Positions 8,791 to 53,764 of a stretch of DNA of 64,000 bases are shown piece by piece (position 1 is the stretch's first letter; each line of letters opens with the position of its first letter). Under the pieces are notes generated by a model that saw nothing but the letters and a program-made list of their open reading frames with translations, searched no databases and was not told the origin of the DNA. Position numbers and translations under genes: made by a program. The stretch is taken from NCBI RefSeq assembly GCF_958301595.1, contig NZ_CATQJU010000001.1, forward strand, positions 930,001 through 994,000, read 5' to 3'. The DNA is from Porphyromonas vaginalis. GTDB lineage: Bacteria > Bacteroidota > Bacteroidia > Bacteroidales > Porphyromonadaceae.

Positions 8791-9087
8791 ACTGGGGAAA
8801 ATCGAACGATGACTCGTTACAATAATTTAGAGCCGATTACATATTGACGTGGTGCTATGTCGGGGAAAACTGATTTCCACGTGGATATTTCGAAATATCC
8901 AGGTGGAGAATAAAAAATTCCTCGGAGGAATGAAATGAAACTTCGGAGGAATGAAATGAAACTTCGGAAGAAATGATTCGCCCCCACGTGGGAAATAAAA
9001 AATATCCACGTGGAGATTTGAAATTCCCCACGTGGATACTCGAGAAAGGAGGGGATCGGACGAACTTCCCCGTAAAGATATGTAAAT
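8791..9087 (+). repeat. Dispersed ~296-bp palindromic element, copy 1
   Basis: Conserved outer ends run from GGGGAAAATCGAACG to CCCCGTAAAGATATGTAAA. The left flank carries ATTTCCACGTGGATATTTCG, the right flank several CCACGTGG words alternating with ATAAAAAAT. The core (about 8918-8980) has a 21-bp tandem unit, CTTCGGA followed by a 14-base spacer (GGAATGAAATGAAA), read here on the plus strand. Full copies recur at 23431-23728 and 51508-51802. A 60-codon open frame crosses it on the minus strand (8827-9009) but is broken in copy 2, so I do not call a gene. Confidence 0.88.
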
Positions 9088-9154
9088 AGAGATTAGAGGT
9101 TAGAGATTAGAGGTTAGAGATTAGAAGTTAGAGATTAGAAGTTAGAGATTAGAG
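9088..9154. repeat. 14-bp tandem repeat AGAGATTAGAGGTT
   Basis: Nearly five tandem copies of a 14-bp unit (AGAGATTAGAGGTT, later copies AGAGATTAGAAGTT) abut the right end of element copy 1 and stop 23 bases before the topB stop codon. The same word family abuts copies 2 and 3. Confidence 0.85.
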
Positions 9155-23442: not shown

Positions 23443-23728
23443 CAACGCTGGGCTGTTGCAATAATTTAGAGTTGATTACATATCGATGCGGGGTTGTGTC
23501 GGTGAAAACTGATTTCCACGTGGATATTTCAAAATCTCCACGTGGAGAATAAAAAATTCTTCGGAGGAATGAAATGAAACTTCGGAAGAATCAAATGAAA
23601 CTTCGGAAGAAATGATTCGCCCCCACGTGGAAAATAAAAAACATCCACGTGGGGATTTGAGATTTCCCACGTGGATATTCGAGAAAGGAGGGAATCGGAC
23701 GAATCTCCCCGTAAAGATATGTAAATAG
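23431..23728 (+). repeat. Dispersed ~296-bp palindromic element, copy 2
   Basis: Same ends and flanks as copy 1 (GCAATAATTTAGAG, GATTTCCACGTGGATATTTC, ATAAAAAAT, CCCCGTAAAGATATGTAAA). The core units are on the plus strand, as in copy 1: CTTCGGA repeated every 21 bases, with spacers GGAATGAAATGAAA and AGAATCAAATGAAA (23559-23607). A TGA breaks the small frame that is open in copies 1 and 3. Confidence 0.88.
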
Positions 23729-23870
23729 AGATTAGAGGTTAGAGTTTAGAAGTTAGAGATTAGAAGCTAGAGATTAGAGATCCGATCACTCTGATAGCTC
23801 CGATGGTTCCGATAGCTAACAGCCAATAGCTAACAGCCAATCCATGGGCTGACACATTTTATATATAATG
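23729..23870. repeat. Mixed low-complexity island (TTAGAGG, GCTCCGAT and AGCTAACAGCC types)
   Basis: GATTAGAGGTTAGAG-type units (23729-23791) pass into ATCACTCTGATAGCTCCGATGG (about 23793-23814), then AGCTAACAGCCAATAGCTAA units up to about 23845. No gene is seen. Confidence 0.75.
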
Positions 23871-50233: not shown

Positions 50234-51343
50234 TCATTGCTGCGGTAGCTCGATCAGCTTGATAGAGCCACTCGTGAGGTCGAAGTATATCGTGTAGGGC
50301 AGCTGGCCTAGCTTGTCAGCACCGAGCTTGTGCTCTAGGAGTGCTGTACGCCCCCACTGCGCCACCGAGAACTCTAGCATGATCGCCTGGCTCCGCTCGG
50401 GCAGCTGTAGTGCTACACGAGCTCGTCCTGGCTCGATGTAGCGCAGTGCCTTGCTCTTGGTCAACTTATGTAGTTCCGCATCGCTCTGCTGCGTGGGATG
50501 ATCTAGTGCCTCGACACTTATGTATATAGGAGCTCCCGAGAGATCTGCCTTGTCGACCAAGCCGTACTGTGGCGCAAAGCGAGCCACCACCTGCTGTGAG
50601 GCCGGCTCGTCAATGGGTACGTCCACGATCTCCTCGTAGTATCGTCTCGTAGTACGACCAGCGAAGAGTGCCTGCAGTGCTGCTATCTCTTTGTCCAGTC
50701 CGTCTAGAACCATCTTGAGTGCTGGCCCGTCGCACGGCATCGTCTCGACTTGACCCGAGAGCAGCTCCACACGGCGCTCTCGTAGCTCGAAGAGTCTACT
50801 GGCCGCCACCTCAGCCTGCTTGGCACGTGAGGTCGCTAGGGCATACTCTTGAGGCAGTGCCTGGCTAGCCTCCTGTTGGGTTACCCCCTTAGGATAGTCC
50901 GCGAGGTAGTCTGTCGTGGAGGGCTTGTACGCCTTGCCGTGGAGTGAGTAGAGCAGCCCTTCGGGCGTTAGTGCCACCAGCTGCTCGACAGAGGGTGTCG
51001 CCACCGACTGGATCAGATAGCTCTGTGTCGTGTCGGGTACGCCATGAGCGTGCATCGCCACACGCTCTATCTGGTAGCGTGTCGTGGGCTGCGTCGCATA
51101 GCTCTCACCTAGATACCTAGAAGCGTAAGCGACCAGTGCACCAGGCTCAAACTGCTCCTCTGAGATAACAAAGTGTATACGTAGTTGTGTCTTCGGTAGA
51201 TAGTAAACGACCCCGTTCGCAGGCTGTTCGTCAGCCACGTACGGAGTCACAGTCGCCTGACGACTAGCGCAGCTCGTGAGCCACACCATCGTCATCGCAA
51301 GTACCCATCTAATTAGTCGGGTAGGGGTCTTAGGTCTGTGCAT
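50234..51343 (-). CDS. DUF4831-type lipoprotein
   Basis: A 369-residue exported lipoprotein: basic start (MHRPKTPTRLIRW), hydrophobic segment and lipobox LTSCASR. The mature part begins NGVVYYLPKTQLRIHFVI, as in Bacteroidota proteins of domain family DUF4831; the assignment is from memory of that pattern. There are repeated beta-like stretches and no catalytic motif. Function unknown. The gene stands alone, with its own -7 box 28 bases upstream. Confidence 0.7.
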   Translation of the reverse strand: MHRPKTPTRLIRWVLAMTMVWLTSCASRQATVTPYVADEQPANGVVYYLPKTQLRIHFVISEEQFEPGALVAYASRYLGESYATQPTTRYQIERVAMHAHGVPDTTQSYLIQSVATPSVEQLVALTPEGLLYSLHGKAYKPSTTDYLADYPKGVTQQEASQALPQEYALATSRAKQAEVAASRLFELRERRVELLSGQVETMPCDGPALKMVLDGLDKEIAALQALFAGRTTRRYYEEIVDVPIDEPASQQVVARFAPQYGLVDKADLSGAPIYISVEALDHPTQQSDAELHKLTKSKALRYIEPGRARVALQLPERSQAIMLEFSVAQWGRTALLEHKLGADKLGQLPYTIYFDLTSGSIKLIELPQQ

Positions 51344-51371
51344 AATCTACCAGTGAAAAATAGACTTGGGA

Positions 51372-51379
51372 CAAAGATA
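51372..51379 (-). promoter_or_regulatory. Promoter -7 box for the DUF4831 gene
   Basis: TATCTTTG on the minus strand, 28 bases before the ATG at 51343. Confidence 0.5.
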
Positions 51380-51385
51380 CGAAAA

Positions 51386-51495
51386 AGAGATTAGAGATCA
51401 GAAGTTAGAAGTTAGCTGTTGGCACTAGCACTCCGATTACTCCGATGGCTCCGATAGATCCGATTACTCCGGTAGCTCTAGCCAACAGCAACCCC
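51386..51495. repeat. Mixed low-complexity island
   Basis: AGATTAGAGATCAGAAGTTA units, then GCTGTTGGCAC, then ACTCCGATTACTCCGATGGC units and AGCCAACAGC. The same three repeat types in the same order occur beside element copies 1 and 2. Confidence 0.75.
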
Positions 51496-51507
51496 CCTCA
51501 AAAAAAA

Positions 51508-51802
51508 CTGGGCAAATTCGACGTCAGATCGCTGCAATAATTTAGAGTTGACTACATATCGATACGAGTCGGTGTCGGGGAAAAGTGATTTCCACGTGGA
51601 TATTTCGAAATGCCCACGTGGAGAATAAAAAATTCCTCCGAAGTTTCATTTGATTCTTCCGAAGTTTCATTTCATTCCTCCGAAGTTTTATTTCGCGCCC
51701 ACGTGGAAAATAAAAAATATCCACGTGGAGATTTGAGATTTACCACGTGGATATTCGAGAAAGGAGGGAATCGGACGATTTCCCCCGTAAAGATATGTAA
51801 AG
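51508..51802 (+). repeat. Dispersed ~296-bp palindromic element, copy 3, with reversed core
   Basis: The flanks match copies 1 and 2 in order and orientation (GCAATAATTTAGAG, TTTCCACGTGGATATTTCG, CCCCGTAAAGATATGTAAA). The core (about 51632-51690) is reversed. The 49 bases at 51637-51685 are the exact reverse complement of 23559-23607 in copy 2, including the order of its two different spacer variants. It lies between the DUF4831 and U32 genes. Confidence 0.9.
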
Positions 51803-51838
51803 GTGCTAGGGGTTAGAAGTTAGAGATCAGAGATTAGT
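51803..51838. repeat. TTAGAGG-type low-complexity repeat
   Basis: GTGCTAGGGGTTAGAAGTTA and following TTAGAGATCAGAGATTAG units abut the right end of element copy 3 and run into the last codons of the U32 peptidase gene. Confidence 0.65.
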
Positions 51839-53764
51839 TTGAGGAGAATCTAGCCACAGGGTCATCATGCAGTGGCGACAGTCGTTTGCGACGCGCAGCC
51901 GATCTCGCCCACGGACTAGATAGAGTGGCAACGCAAAGGGTGGCTTGCGCCCCGTCCGTGTACAGTAGCCGAGCTGATGCAGTAGGCAGTGACGGGTAAA
52001 CATCACGGGGATTGATCCCTCGGGACGCTCAACCTCGAGGGCGGGAGCGATGCTCCCTGAGACGCCTAGCTGGCGGTAGAGCTGACGTGCCGACTCATTG
52101 GCCACATTGTAGGTGAAGTCTAGCGTGTCGGGCAGACCATACCGCTGACGTGCCGTAGGGTCTGGCGTGTGGAGTCGGTCGATGCGCTTCTGCTGTAGTG
52201 GCTTACCGATGGCATCTCTGCGCTGTAGTGCTAGAGCGATGCATTGACGCTGCAGCTCCTCCGCGAGCTCTCGTCGCAGCTCCGCAACGAGCGAGGGCGG
52301 GACGAAGAGTCCGTATAACTTTATGGTCACCTCTGTAGCTCTGTATGGTGTGTCGCCGAGCTTGCGAAGGGTGCGCTCTACGTGAGCCGTATTGTCTCGC
52401 TGCGCAGGCTCTAGCGTGACCGATCGGCTACGTGTGATCGACAGGTCGGGTGCCTCCGTGAGTTGCATTTGTAGTGCGAGCCGGTCGGGCGTTGCCTCCA
52501 GATGTAGCGACACCGGTATAGTGCGGGTAGAGGCATCGGGGCGTAGGAGCTGAGCCTCTAGGAGATGATTGAGGTTGCGCCAGAGCGTCGACCCCTGTGG
52601 CAGTTCTAGCGCTTGGGAGAGACGCAGACGATAGTGTCCTGCTCGCCTAGCGGGCGTCACTTGGTTGATCTGTGCTCCGATGAGCTTCTTGTCGATAGCG
52701 TAAGCGACCACCCCGTCGCCATTAGCGAGCATGATGTCGTCGCTCAGGAGTGCTATCTCTAGCTCTTTGCCTCGGCTCTGGATTACCGTACCGATCGGCT
52801 GACCGAGGCTTTTGCTGCTAAAGGGTGTGATGCTGTCGGTAGGAATAGGCGAACCGAGGGGCGTATTGTAGCTAGTAAAGGGGCGGGCAAAGGTCGCCTC
52901 AGGCTGCGGCGTGAAGGTGTACTCCGCCACTCCCCATGAGGGACGTCGCAACTCGCCACTACGACGAGTCAAGATCTCGTCTAGCACTCTACGATAGTGG
53001 GCGATGACGTTGCGCACGTAAGGGATCGCCTTGAGTCGCCCCTCCACCTTGAAGGAGCTGACGCCCGCATCGATCATCTCTTCGATGATCTCGGTGCGGT
53101 TGAGATCTTTCAGAGAGAGTAGGTGCTCGCCCTGGCGTAGCTTTTGTCCCTGAGCATCGACGAGATCATAAGTCATGCGGCAGTACTGAGCGCATTGCCC
53201 CCGATTGGCACTGCGCTGCGAGAGTGCCTCGGAGATAAAGCAGCGACCACTGTAAGAGACGCAGAGTGCCCCATGGACGAACGCCTCTAGTCGCAGCGGG
53301 GTCTTGTCGCGCACCGCCACAATGTCCTGACAGCTCCACTCGCGTGGCAAGACAGCCTGCTCGAAGCCTAGATCGGAGAGCATCTGCAGCTGCTCTAGCG
53401 AGTGATTATGGCACTGCGTGCTAGCGTGTAGCGGGATAGGCGGTAGCTCCTGGGTGAGTAGTCCGAGATCCTGTATGATGAGTGCGTCTGCGCCCGCCTC
53501 GTAGAGCTGATGCGCCATCTCGACGGCGTGCGTTAATTGACTATCAGTGAGGATCGTATTGAGCGCTACATAGACTCGTGCGGCATAGCTGTGAGCTGCA
53601 TCGCAGAGTTGCCGTATATCTTCGAGCGAGACCCCGACAGCACTCCTAGCACCATACTGAGGAGCGCCTACGTAGACCGCATCGGCACCCGCCGAGAGTG
53701 CCACCAGACCACCCTCGAGCGAGGAGGCTGGAGCCAAGAGCTCTATGTCGCGTAGTGTAGTCAA
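51827..53764 (-). CDS. U32-family peptidase/RlhA-like protein
   Basis: A 645-residue protein of the collagenase-like U32 family (PrtC, YegQ/RlhA). The family signature is EAFVHGALCVSYSGRCFIS at about residues 167-185. Further conserved cysteines lie in NRGQCAQYCRMTYD and, in the C-terminal part, HCLLHQLGYCTRTG and NDCRHCMM, probably an iron-sulphur site. Members act as proteases or in 23S rRNA cytidine hydroxylation. The extra C-terminal part (from about 400) is usual for the long form. It starts 13 bases after upp, so the two form an operon. Confidence 0.88.
   Translation of the reverse strand: MTTLRDIELLAPASSLEGGLVALSAGADAVYVGAPQYGARSAVGVSLEDIRQLCDAAHSYAARVYVALNTILTDSQLTHAVEMAHQLYEAGADALIIQDLGLLTQELPPIPLHASTQCHNHSLEQLQMLSDLGFEQAVLPREWSCQDIVAVRDKTPLRLEAFVHGALCVSYSGRCFISEALSQRSANRGQCAQYCRMTYDLVDAQGQKLRQGEHLLSLKDLNRTEIIEEMIDAGVSSFKVEGRLKAIPYVRNVIAHYRRVLDEILTRRSGELRRPSWGVAEYTFTPQPEATFARPFTSYNTPLGSPIPTDSITPFSSKSLGQPIGTVIQSRGKELEIALLSDDIMLANGDGVVAYAIDKKLIGAQINQVTPARRAGHYRLRLSQALELPQGSTLWRNLNHLLEAQLLRPDASTRTIPVSLHLEATPDRLALQMQLTEAPDLSITRSRSVTLEPAQRDNTAHVERTLRKLGDTPYRATEVTIKLYGLFVPPSLVAELRRELAEELQRQCIALALQRRDAIGKPLQQKRIDRLHTPDPTARQRYGLPDTLDFTYNVANESARQLYRQLGVSGSIAPALEVERPEGSIPVMFTRHCLLHQLGYCTRTGRKPPFALPLYLVRGRDRLRVANDCRHCMMTLWLDSPQTNL

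Follow-up and report, generated by a model that had tools for sequence, protein, structure and literature searches.

A reversed core in a high-copy ISAs1-type repeat family of Porphyromonas: probably an old array version rather than an active DNA switch

How a repeated element comes to carry its core the other way round between flanks that keep their orientation is the question raised by one locus in the window, by which we mean the whole 64,000-nucleotide stretch analysed here (G000:C1:930001-994000, G000 being the genome that holds it). The window contains three copies of the element on the + strand. Copy 1 (8792-9086; array 8877-9035) and copy 2 (23457-23725; array 23516-23674, core 23559-23607) have forward cores. 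The flanks of copies 2 and 3 are co-oriented and align at 84% identity over 269 bp, and copy 1 aligns at 80%. In copy 3, direct comparison shows that all 49 bases at 51637-51685 match 23559-23607 once one of the two is reverse-complemented. The first-pass annotation had described this reversal, the shared orientation of the flanks and the proximity of U32 and DUF4831 genes, and our analysis bears out all three; it had taken them to indicate either a past inversion or an active switch.

Copy 3 (51508-51802, + strand) is a long element composed of a 5′ conserved segment, a palindromic array and a 3′ conserved segment. Its 159-bp array (51592-51750, + strand) has CCACGTGG boxes at 51592, 51614, 51699, 51721 and 51743, and core motifs TCCGAAG at 51637, 51658 and 51679 that occupy the same spacing of about 21-22 bp as the boxes. 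The reversed minisatellite core (51637-51685, − strand) amounts to two 21-bp units plus a bit. It is preceded by an A-rich left junction, AGAATAAAAAATTCC (51622-51636, + strand), oriented as in forward copies, and followed by a right junction, TTTTATTTCGCGC (51686-51698, + strand), which is also of the reversed kind, so that the difference from copy 2 extends beyond the 49 bases. On one side lies the DUF4831 gene (50234-51343, − strand; PF16115, E 9.5e-94), whose predicted start faces copy 3 from 165 bp away, and on the other the U32 peptidase gene (51827-53764, − strand; PF01136, E 1.9e-66), whose 3′ end abuts it. The best segment of the U32 protein is 97% identical to that of an uncultured Porphyromonas MAG, and the corresponding value for two P. 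uenonis genomes is 91%, which places the window in a Porphyromonas close to P. uenonis. An Rfam search gave a sole weak match, to tsr1 (18.9 bits against a gathering threshold of 235, E 0.007), which we take as chance. Short tandem repeats of the TTAGAGATTAGAAG, TCCGATAGCTCCGATGG and AACAGCCAATAGC kinds flank the copies (9082-9150, 23729-23850 and 51376-51500 in the window), and at one locus the element insertion sits within such an array.

The three copies belong to a large family. A search with the 3′ end of the element gave 96 matches in the 2.52-Mb genome G000 and none with the reversed control; the copy number is thus at least 96, with at least one more diverged copy (array at 1479043). 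By layout, 71 copies are forward, 8 reversed, 5 FWD-B (the junction of the reversed cassette turned back together with one box), 4 FWD-P (one extra box and one core unit fewer) and 8 disrupted (broken by an insertion sequence, truncated or down to one box); one layout tally covers 95 copies, the locus L003 being equal to L002. Genus-wide, the element is matched in 6 of 26 genomes including G000, the other anchor occurrences numbering 23 in G001, 20 in G022, 2 in G024 and 1 each in G016 and G025. A literature search found no published description of the family, which full texts may mention.

Several observations concern how the copies are placed. The 5′-side neighbour gene points away from the element at 56 of 95 copies, towards it at 34 and is undetermined at 5, a weak tally based on simple ORF calls. 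Element strand follows the sign of GC skew in sampled stretches (39 + and 9 − at 0.9-2.3 Mb, 18 + and 30 − elsewhere); the agreement of 69 of 96 copies (binomial p 2e-5) comes from hand counts, with breakpoints picked after the data had been seen and a skew sampled unevenly, in which bins 0 and 1000 kb disagree. One and the same IS-like end (...AGGAGAGGACA) adjoins the element, at differing inner positions, in L034, L066, L073 and L080 of G000 and L120 of G001, and the element seems to be a target for the other IS that owns this end.

We found that the element forms the interior of an ISAs1-type MITE, whose length is mostly 0.5-0.75 kb. TIR-like ends CAGGGCTGACGCATTAT were present in the searched flanks of 44 of the 96 copies on the left, 52 on the right and 26 on both sides, leaving 70 copies without one or both. 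The 26 two-ended copies yield 30 end pairs, of which 11 are bounded by direct repeats of 9-11 bp (9 exact and 2 with the one mismatch allowed), compared with 0 of 750 cross-locus control pairs. Ten of the 11 units bearing such target-site duplications (TSDs) measure 518-753 bp; the eleventh, at 2,091 bp, contains the IS. This IS, about 1.3 kb long and lying beside L002 and L003, has the same ends as the MITE and encodes an ISAs1 transposase (NF033564, E 1.6e-85). ISAs1-family elements and the MITE thus share their TIRs, but the MITE lacks the transposase and holds a palindromic array. The reversed copies L002 and L003 are each joined with the IS in one 2,092-bp unit, 100% identical at the two sites; an 11-bp direct repeat surrounds the unit at L002, and L003 has no clean TSD. 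Comparison of genomes points the same way, as one G001 copy forms a unit of about 620 bp for which the matching G000 site is empty, and one G000 copy is absent at the matching G001 site. The family therefore has TIRs matching those of an autonomous IS, TSDs, and short units without a transposase gene. For copy 3 itself no TIRs were found: a window-wide scan allowing three mismatches gave only 23846 (+) and 46728 (−), none of them around copy 3, and among the listed ORFs of at least 100 aa, read by eye, there was no transposase around it. Ends of the GAGACTGTTGCA type, resembling those of ISPg4 and MITEPgRS as given in Table 2 of PMC4596501, occur in the 5′ flanks of L020 and L005.

We then asked what it says about the origin of the reversed core that copies 2 and 3 match exactly. 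Of the 80 intact non-reversed copies of G000, 17 contain the 49-mer, whose unit order is the second commonest, accounting for 20 of 67 matches to the two-unit forward pattern. The match is due to homology and not to chance, yet it is uninformative on the copy 3 locus: a common haplotype suffices to produce it, and it therefore neither dates nor places the inversion. With this, the argument that the preserved order of spacer variants marks an inversion at a single locus falls away. For six of the eight reversed copies, no forward copy is an exact reverse complement.

The junctions are more telling. The motif CGAAGTTT[TC]ATTTC[AG]CG before the right box is found in all 8 reversed copies and in none of the 88 others, 8 of which are disrupted. 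The TTCATTCGTTTC unit occurs in 5 of the 8 reversed copies and, in either direction, in none of the other 88. FWD-B copies carry the reversed-type right junction in the opposite direction, a class defined by the same junction motif that was later counted in it, so that this count is not independent evidence. A simple flip between CCACGTGG boxes would leave junctions that, at up to two mismatches, were seen in 0 of 96 copies. We also compared reversed copies with random sets drawn from 68 forward copies, leaving aside L003, which does not differ from L002, and L008, whose 5′ end has been replaced. In the 93-bp inside, identity is 94.6% among the remaining six reversed copies and 93.3% among the forward sets, 14% of which are at least as alike; the forward sets equal or exceed the likeness of the reversed copies in 29% of cases for the 5′ segment and in 98% for the 3′ segment. 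The junction common to all eight reversed copies suggests one old event that was copied later. These comparisons do not prove a single recent origin, since the insides do not clearly exceed those of forward sets in similarity; one junction in all reversed copies, combined with flanks no more alike than random, is read as one old cassette on many backgrounds.

An alternative is that inversions recur, each reversed copy being its own event of template switching at the quasi-palindromic core. Consistent with this, other inverted layouts exist, such as the turned-back junction with its box in FWD-B, one G001 array (at 1276016) looks flipped box to box, and the reversed copies neither group by their flanks nor have clearly more similar insides than forward copies. 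We nevertheless regard independent inversions as unlikely in view of the single junction that unites the reversed copies and is absent elsewhere, and of the unit variant confined to them.

Scoring core orientation at orthologous positions in relatives was a check that the first-pass annotation had put forward. From flank matches, 17 locus pairs were chosen between G000 and either G022 or G001, with one genome per species; L094, L114, L115, L120, L129 and L130 were left out for conflicting, repeat-only, one-sided or IS-linked matches. Three pairs (L104, L109 and L131) had no scorable core. Of the 14 that did, 11 were matched on both flanks, one of them weakly (L122, right flank 76-79%), and L106, L107 and L123 on a single flank. 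Core orientation agrees in 13 of the 14 scorable pairs and differs in one, which lends no support to a switch. In the pair L105 (G022) and L005 (G000) both cores are reversed and identical over the 151 bases compared, with flanks 95-98% identical. A short array at 1409970 in G000 and 1261265 in G001, lying within a 17.8-kb alignment, likewise agrees in core orientation between the two genomes. The insides of 8 of the 13 ortholog pairs with a figure are only 50-70% identical, although the comparison is ungapped and frame shifts between 159- and 160-bp arrays lower some values. Arrays have thus been partly rewritten over time, with orientation mostly kept.

The discordant pair is L124 of G001 and L046+ of G000, which are oppositely oriented at one orthologous locus. 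The difference is not a clean flip, as the G001 copy is without the 5′ part of the element. What is apparently one locus exists in three states: full and forward in G000 (L046_+_1561), reversed without the 5′ part in G001 (L124), and reduced to a single box in G022 (L104, matched to this locus by its left flank only).

The U32 locus offered no scorable orthologous core in the relatives inspected. The array is degenerate in the MAG (L091), a different array lies beside other genes in P. uenonis 60-3 (L093), and the 900 bases inspected in DSM 23387 (L092) contain no array. The diverged L093 array, downstream of U32 at about 7000, has reversed-type junctions and runs in the opposite direction relative to U32 from that in the window; the sequence beside it also differs from the window's.

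The identical reversed copy at a matching locus in G022, which is a locus other than that of copy 3, also bears on the possibility that the reversed core was created by assembly or base calling. Repeats present in about 100 copies can be mis-assembled, but G000 has eight reversed copies with a common junction and its assembly consists of 2 contigs and is 99.78% complete. An artefact at the copy 3 locus is extremely improbable.

In invertase-driven phase-variable DNA, a segment occurs both ways round between similar sequences. The present family is like such systems in having both orientations; it differs in that the bordering sequences are direct repeats, no invertase is nearby and orientation is mostly stable per locus. 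For copy 3, an active switch would mean that a host recombinase flips the core and thereby alters DUF4831 or U32 expression. The occurrence of both core orientations in the family and the position of the element 165 bp upstream of the predicted DUF4831 start are compatible with this, as are 18 tyrosine-recombinase hits in G000 (17 above the cut-off, counted as a group). None of these hits, however, lies within about 500 kb of the copy 3 locus, and G000 has no serine-recombinase match. The words CCACGTGG-N3-ATAAAAAAT, which had been proposed as the recombination sites, occur at 8984, 23538, 51614 and 51699, always on the + strand, and a + strand search of the window for the opposite form, ATTTTTTAT-N3-CCACGTGG, gave no match. 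The words bordering the core of copy 3 are therefore direct repeats, which would excise rather than invert, and with box-to-box flip junctions missing from all 96 copies the proposal does not hold. CCACGTGG alone, being a palindrome, may still act as a recombination site. A sigma-70 scan of 51300-52000, using a model that may not fit promoters of this phylum, gave no promoter-like site, and a terminator scan gave none in copy 3; we accordingly dropped copy 3 as a candidate promoter or terminator. Given the orientation conserved at 13 of 14 scorable orthologous loci, direct repeats, absent flip junctions and the lack of a nearby recombinase, we reject the active switch as unsupported and consider it very unlikely. 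Of the two possibilities originally raised, a past inversion stands for the family and an active switch does not.

The reading that we favour, and consider likely, is that copy 3 belongs to, or is left over from, a high-copy ISAs1-type non-autonomous family and that its reversed core is an old version of the array, inverted probably once in an ancestor, copied, and kept in its orientation thereafter. The inside of the family is an array of about 160 bp with some eight short palindrome-like sites spaced about 21-22 bp apart. An inversion within this array, to which the junctions point indirectly, would have produced a cassette of about 93 bp, which transposition then carried to other loci, as seen for the locus pair L002 and L003, and which probably spread by gene conversion between copies as well. 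Each locus would then have held its orientation, as most scorable orthologous loci do. The inversion itself most likely came about by template switching or non-reciprocal recombination among the palindromes without a dedicated invertase, and the reversal may have been tolerated because palindromes and spacing read alike both ways. Against this account stand the orientation difference between L124 and L046+, L003 without a clean TSD, copy 3 without TIRs and 70 of the 96 copies short of one or both, reversed insides not clearly more similar than forward ones, the low identity of many ortholog insides, and the U32 locus, which gave no scorable orthologous core.

Whether the array is itself under selection is a further question. 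Among the 88 intact G000 copies, it measures 159 bp in 81, 160 bp in 4, 158 bp in 1 and 138 bp in 2. We rejected this constancy as proof of selection, since the flanking segments are just as constant (5′, 58 bp in 85 of 86; 3′, 43 bp in 88 of 88); constant length within G000 therefore reflects recent spread. The relative G001 is more informative. In 400 kb of its sequence, 22 arrays were parsed, and despite differing layouts 17 are exactly 160 bp long, with two of 182 bp, one of 204 bp and two of 116 bp; 15 of the 22 lack the 3′ flank of the long element. By eye, the 116-bp arrays look like 160-bp arrays whose last boxes are too changed for the parser, and the 182-bp arrays include an extra weak box, possibly a chance one. 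Many apparent reversed cores in the G001 parser output were discounted as mostly whole arrays read from the other strand.

A second carrier was found in G001: elements that are about 279 bp long and have GGCTAATTNNTATTTTGAGGTGCTGG ends. The 8-mers flanking four such spans in the 400 kb match at 8, 8, 7 and 1 of 8 positions, compared with at most 4 in 26 control pairs. All 8 further GGCTAATTNNTATTTTGAGGTGCTGG-ended spans inspected in G001 (279-343 bp) hold an array, and their flanking 8-mers match at 8 of 8 positions in one, 6 of 8 in three and at most 5 in four. The same ends bound six spans of 1,658 bp, and the two inspected both have exact 8-bp repeats; a similar GGCTAATTNNTATTTTGAGGTGCTGG-ended span in G000 has no exact 8-bp repeats. 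The transposase of the one 1,658-bp G001 span that was translated has an ISL3-type domain (PF01610, E 1.5e-34), with NCBIfam matches to ISAon1 and ISL3 below the model cut-offs. By eye, the other 10 of the 15 short-type arrays show no GGCTAATTNNTATTTTGAGGTGCTGG ends within 170 bases on each side. A similar palindromic array of about 160 bp therefore also lies within ISL3-like MITEs of this relative.

These data raise the possibility of a functional scaffold, in which the boxes are sites for a dimeric protein on one helix face, or form hairpins, and selection acts only on site identity and phase, which leaves the inside free to turn round. The 160-bp arrays of G001 with their varied layouts and often missing 3′ flank are in favour of it, as is the carriage of arrays by two unrelated MITE types. 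Predicted folding of copy 3 is better than that of shuffles for both RNA strands (z −4.3 and −4.8). Among 51 arrays, mostly from G001 and G022, boxes 7 and 8 covary, staying complementary in all 3 arrays in which both are altered against a shuffle mean of 0.17, but two of the three carry the same change. The other box pairs do not clearly covary, with one or two complementary cases at most (B2-B3, 1 against 0.02 expected; B3-B6, 2 against 0.93; B1-B8, 1 against 0.17; the rest 0). The other five G001 lengths fall in 22-bp steps, but these are partly built into a parser that seeks weak extra boxes only at 21-23 bp and hence favours such steps. The length constancy within G000, shared by the flanks, shows recent spread only, and copy 3 contains no terminator that the scan could find. 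We regard a selected scaffold as possible but doubtful. A broader and speculative version, which we also hold to be rather improbable, is that the lattice of eight phased palindromes spanning about 160 bp is a captured module taken up separately by unrelated ISAs1-type and ISL3-like MITEs, with site count and phase kept and spacers and core freely inverted, duplicated or swapped; it would then act as an orientation-blind binding or hairpin module that aids its carriers. Such aid might take the form of intergenic tolerance, insulation or host-factor recruitment.

The family invites comparison with two described kinds of repeat. BrickBuilt, a MITE of Porphyromonas gingivalis, has IS5-type TIRs, a 23-nt minisatellite and 19 copies in ATCC 33277, according to the abstract and Table 2 of PMC4596501. 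Like the present elements, it is intergenic, repeated and non-autonomous, belongs to Porphyromonas and has small inverted-repeat ends around a tandem minisatellite. The present family, in contrast, has a 21-bp unit, TIR CAGGGCTGACGCATTAT, an ISAs1 transposase, at least 96 copies and CCACGTGG boxes, and on the strength of the different TIR and unit length given in those parts of the source we do not identify it with BrickBuilt. The words 'ISAs1' and 'asaccharolytica' do not occur in the main text of PMC4596501. BIMEs built of REP palindromes, as described in part of PMC2817692, resemble our arrays in the regular spacing of palindromes, modules both ways round and high copy number. REPs, however, go with REP-associated tyrosine (Y1) transposases, whereas the present arrays travel inside DDE-transposase MITEs. 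The Y1 (RAYT) transposase family PF01797 has no match in G000, the control being positive in 5 of 14 genomes, and we therefore reject mobilisation by a REP/RAYT system.

These results describe an intergenic repeat family of high copy number in the P. uenonis / P. asaccharolytica group, together with its likely mobiliser. They also illustrate that what looks like good evidence for a DNA switch can come from a stable variant of a mobile repeat, the two being told apart by haplotype frequency, junctions and orthologous loci. The palindromic array common to two unrelated transposon types lends itself to tests for protein binding or for hairpins in RNA.
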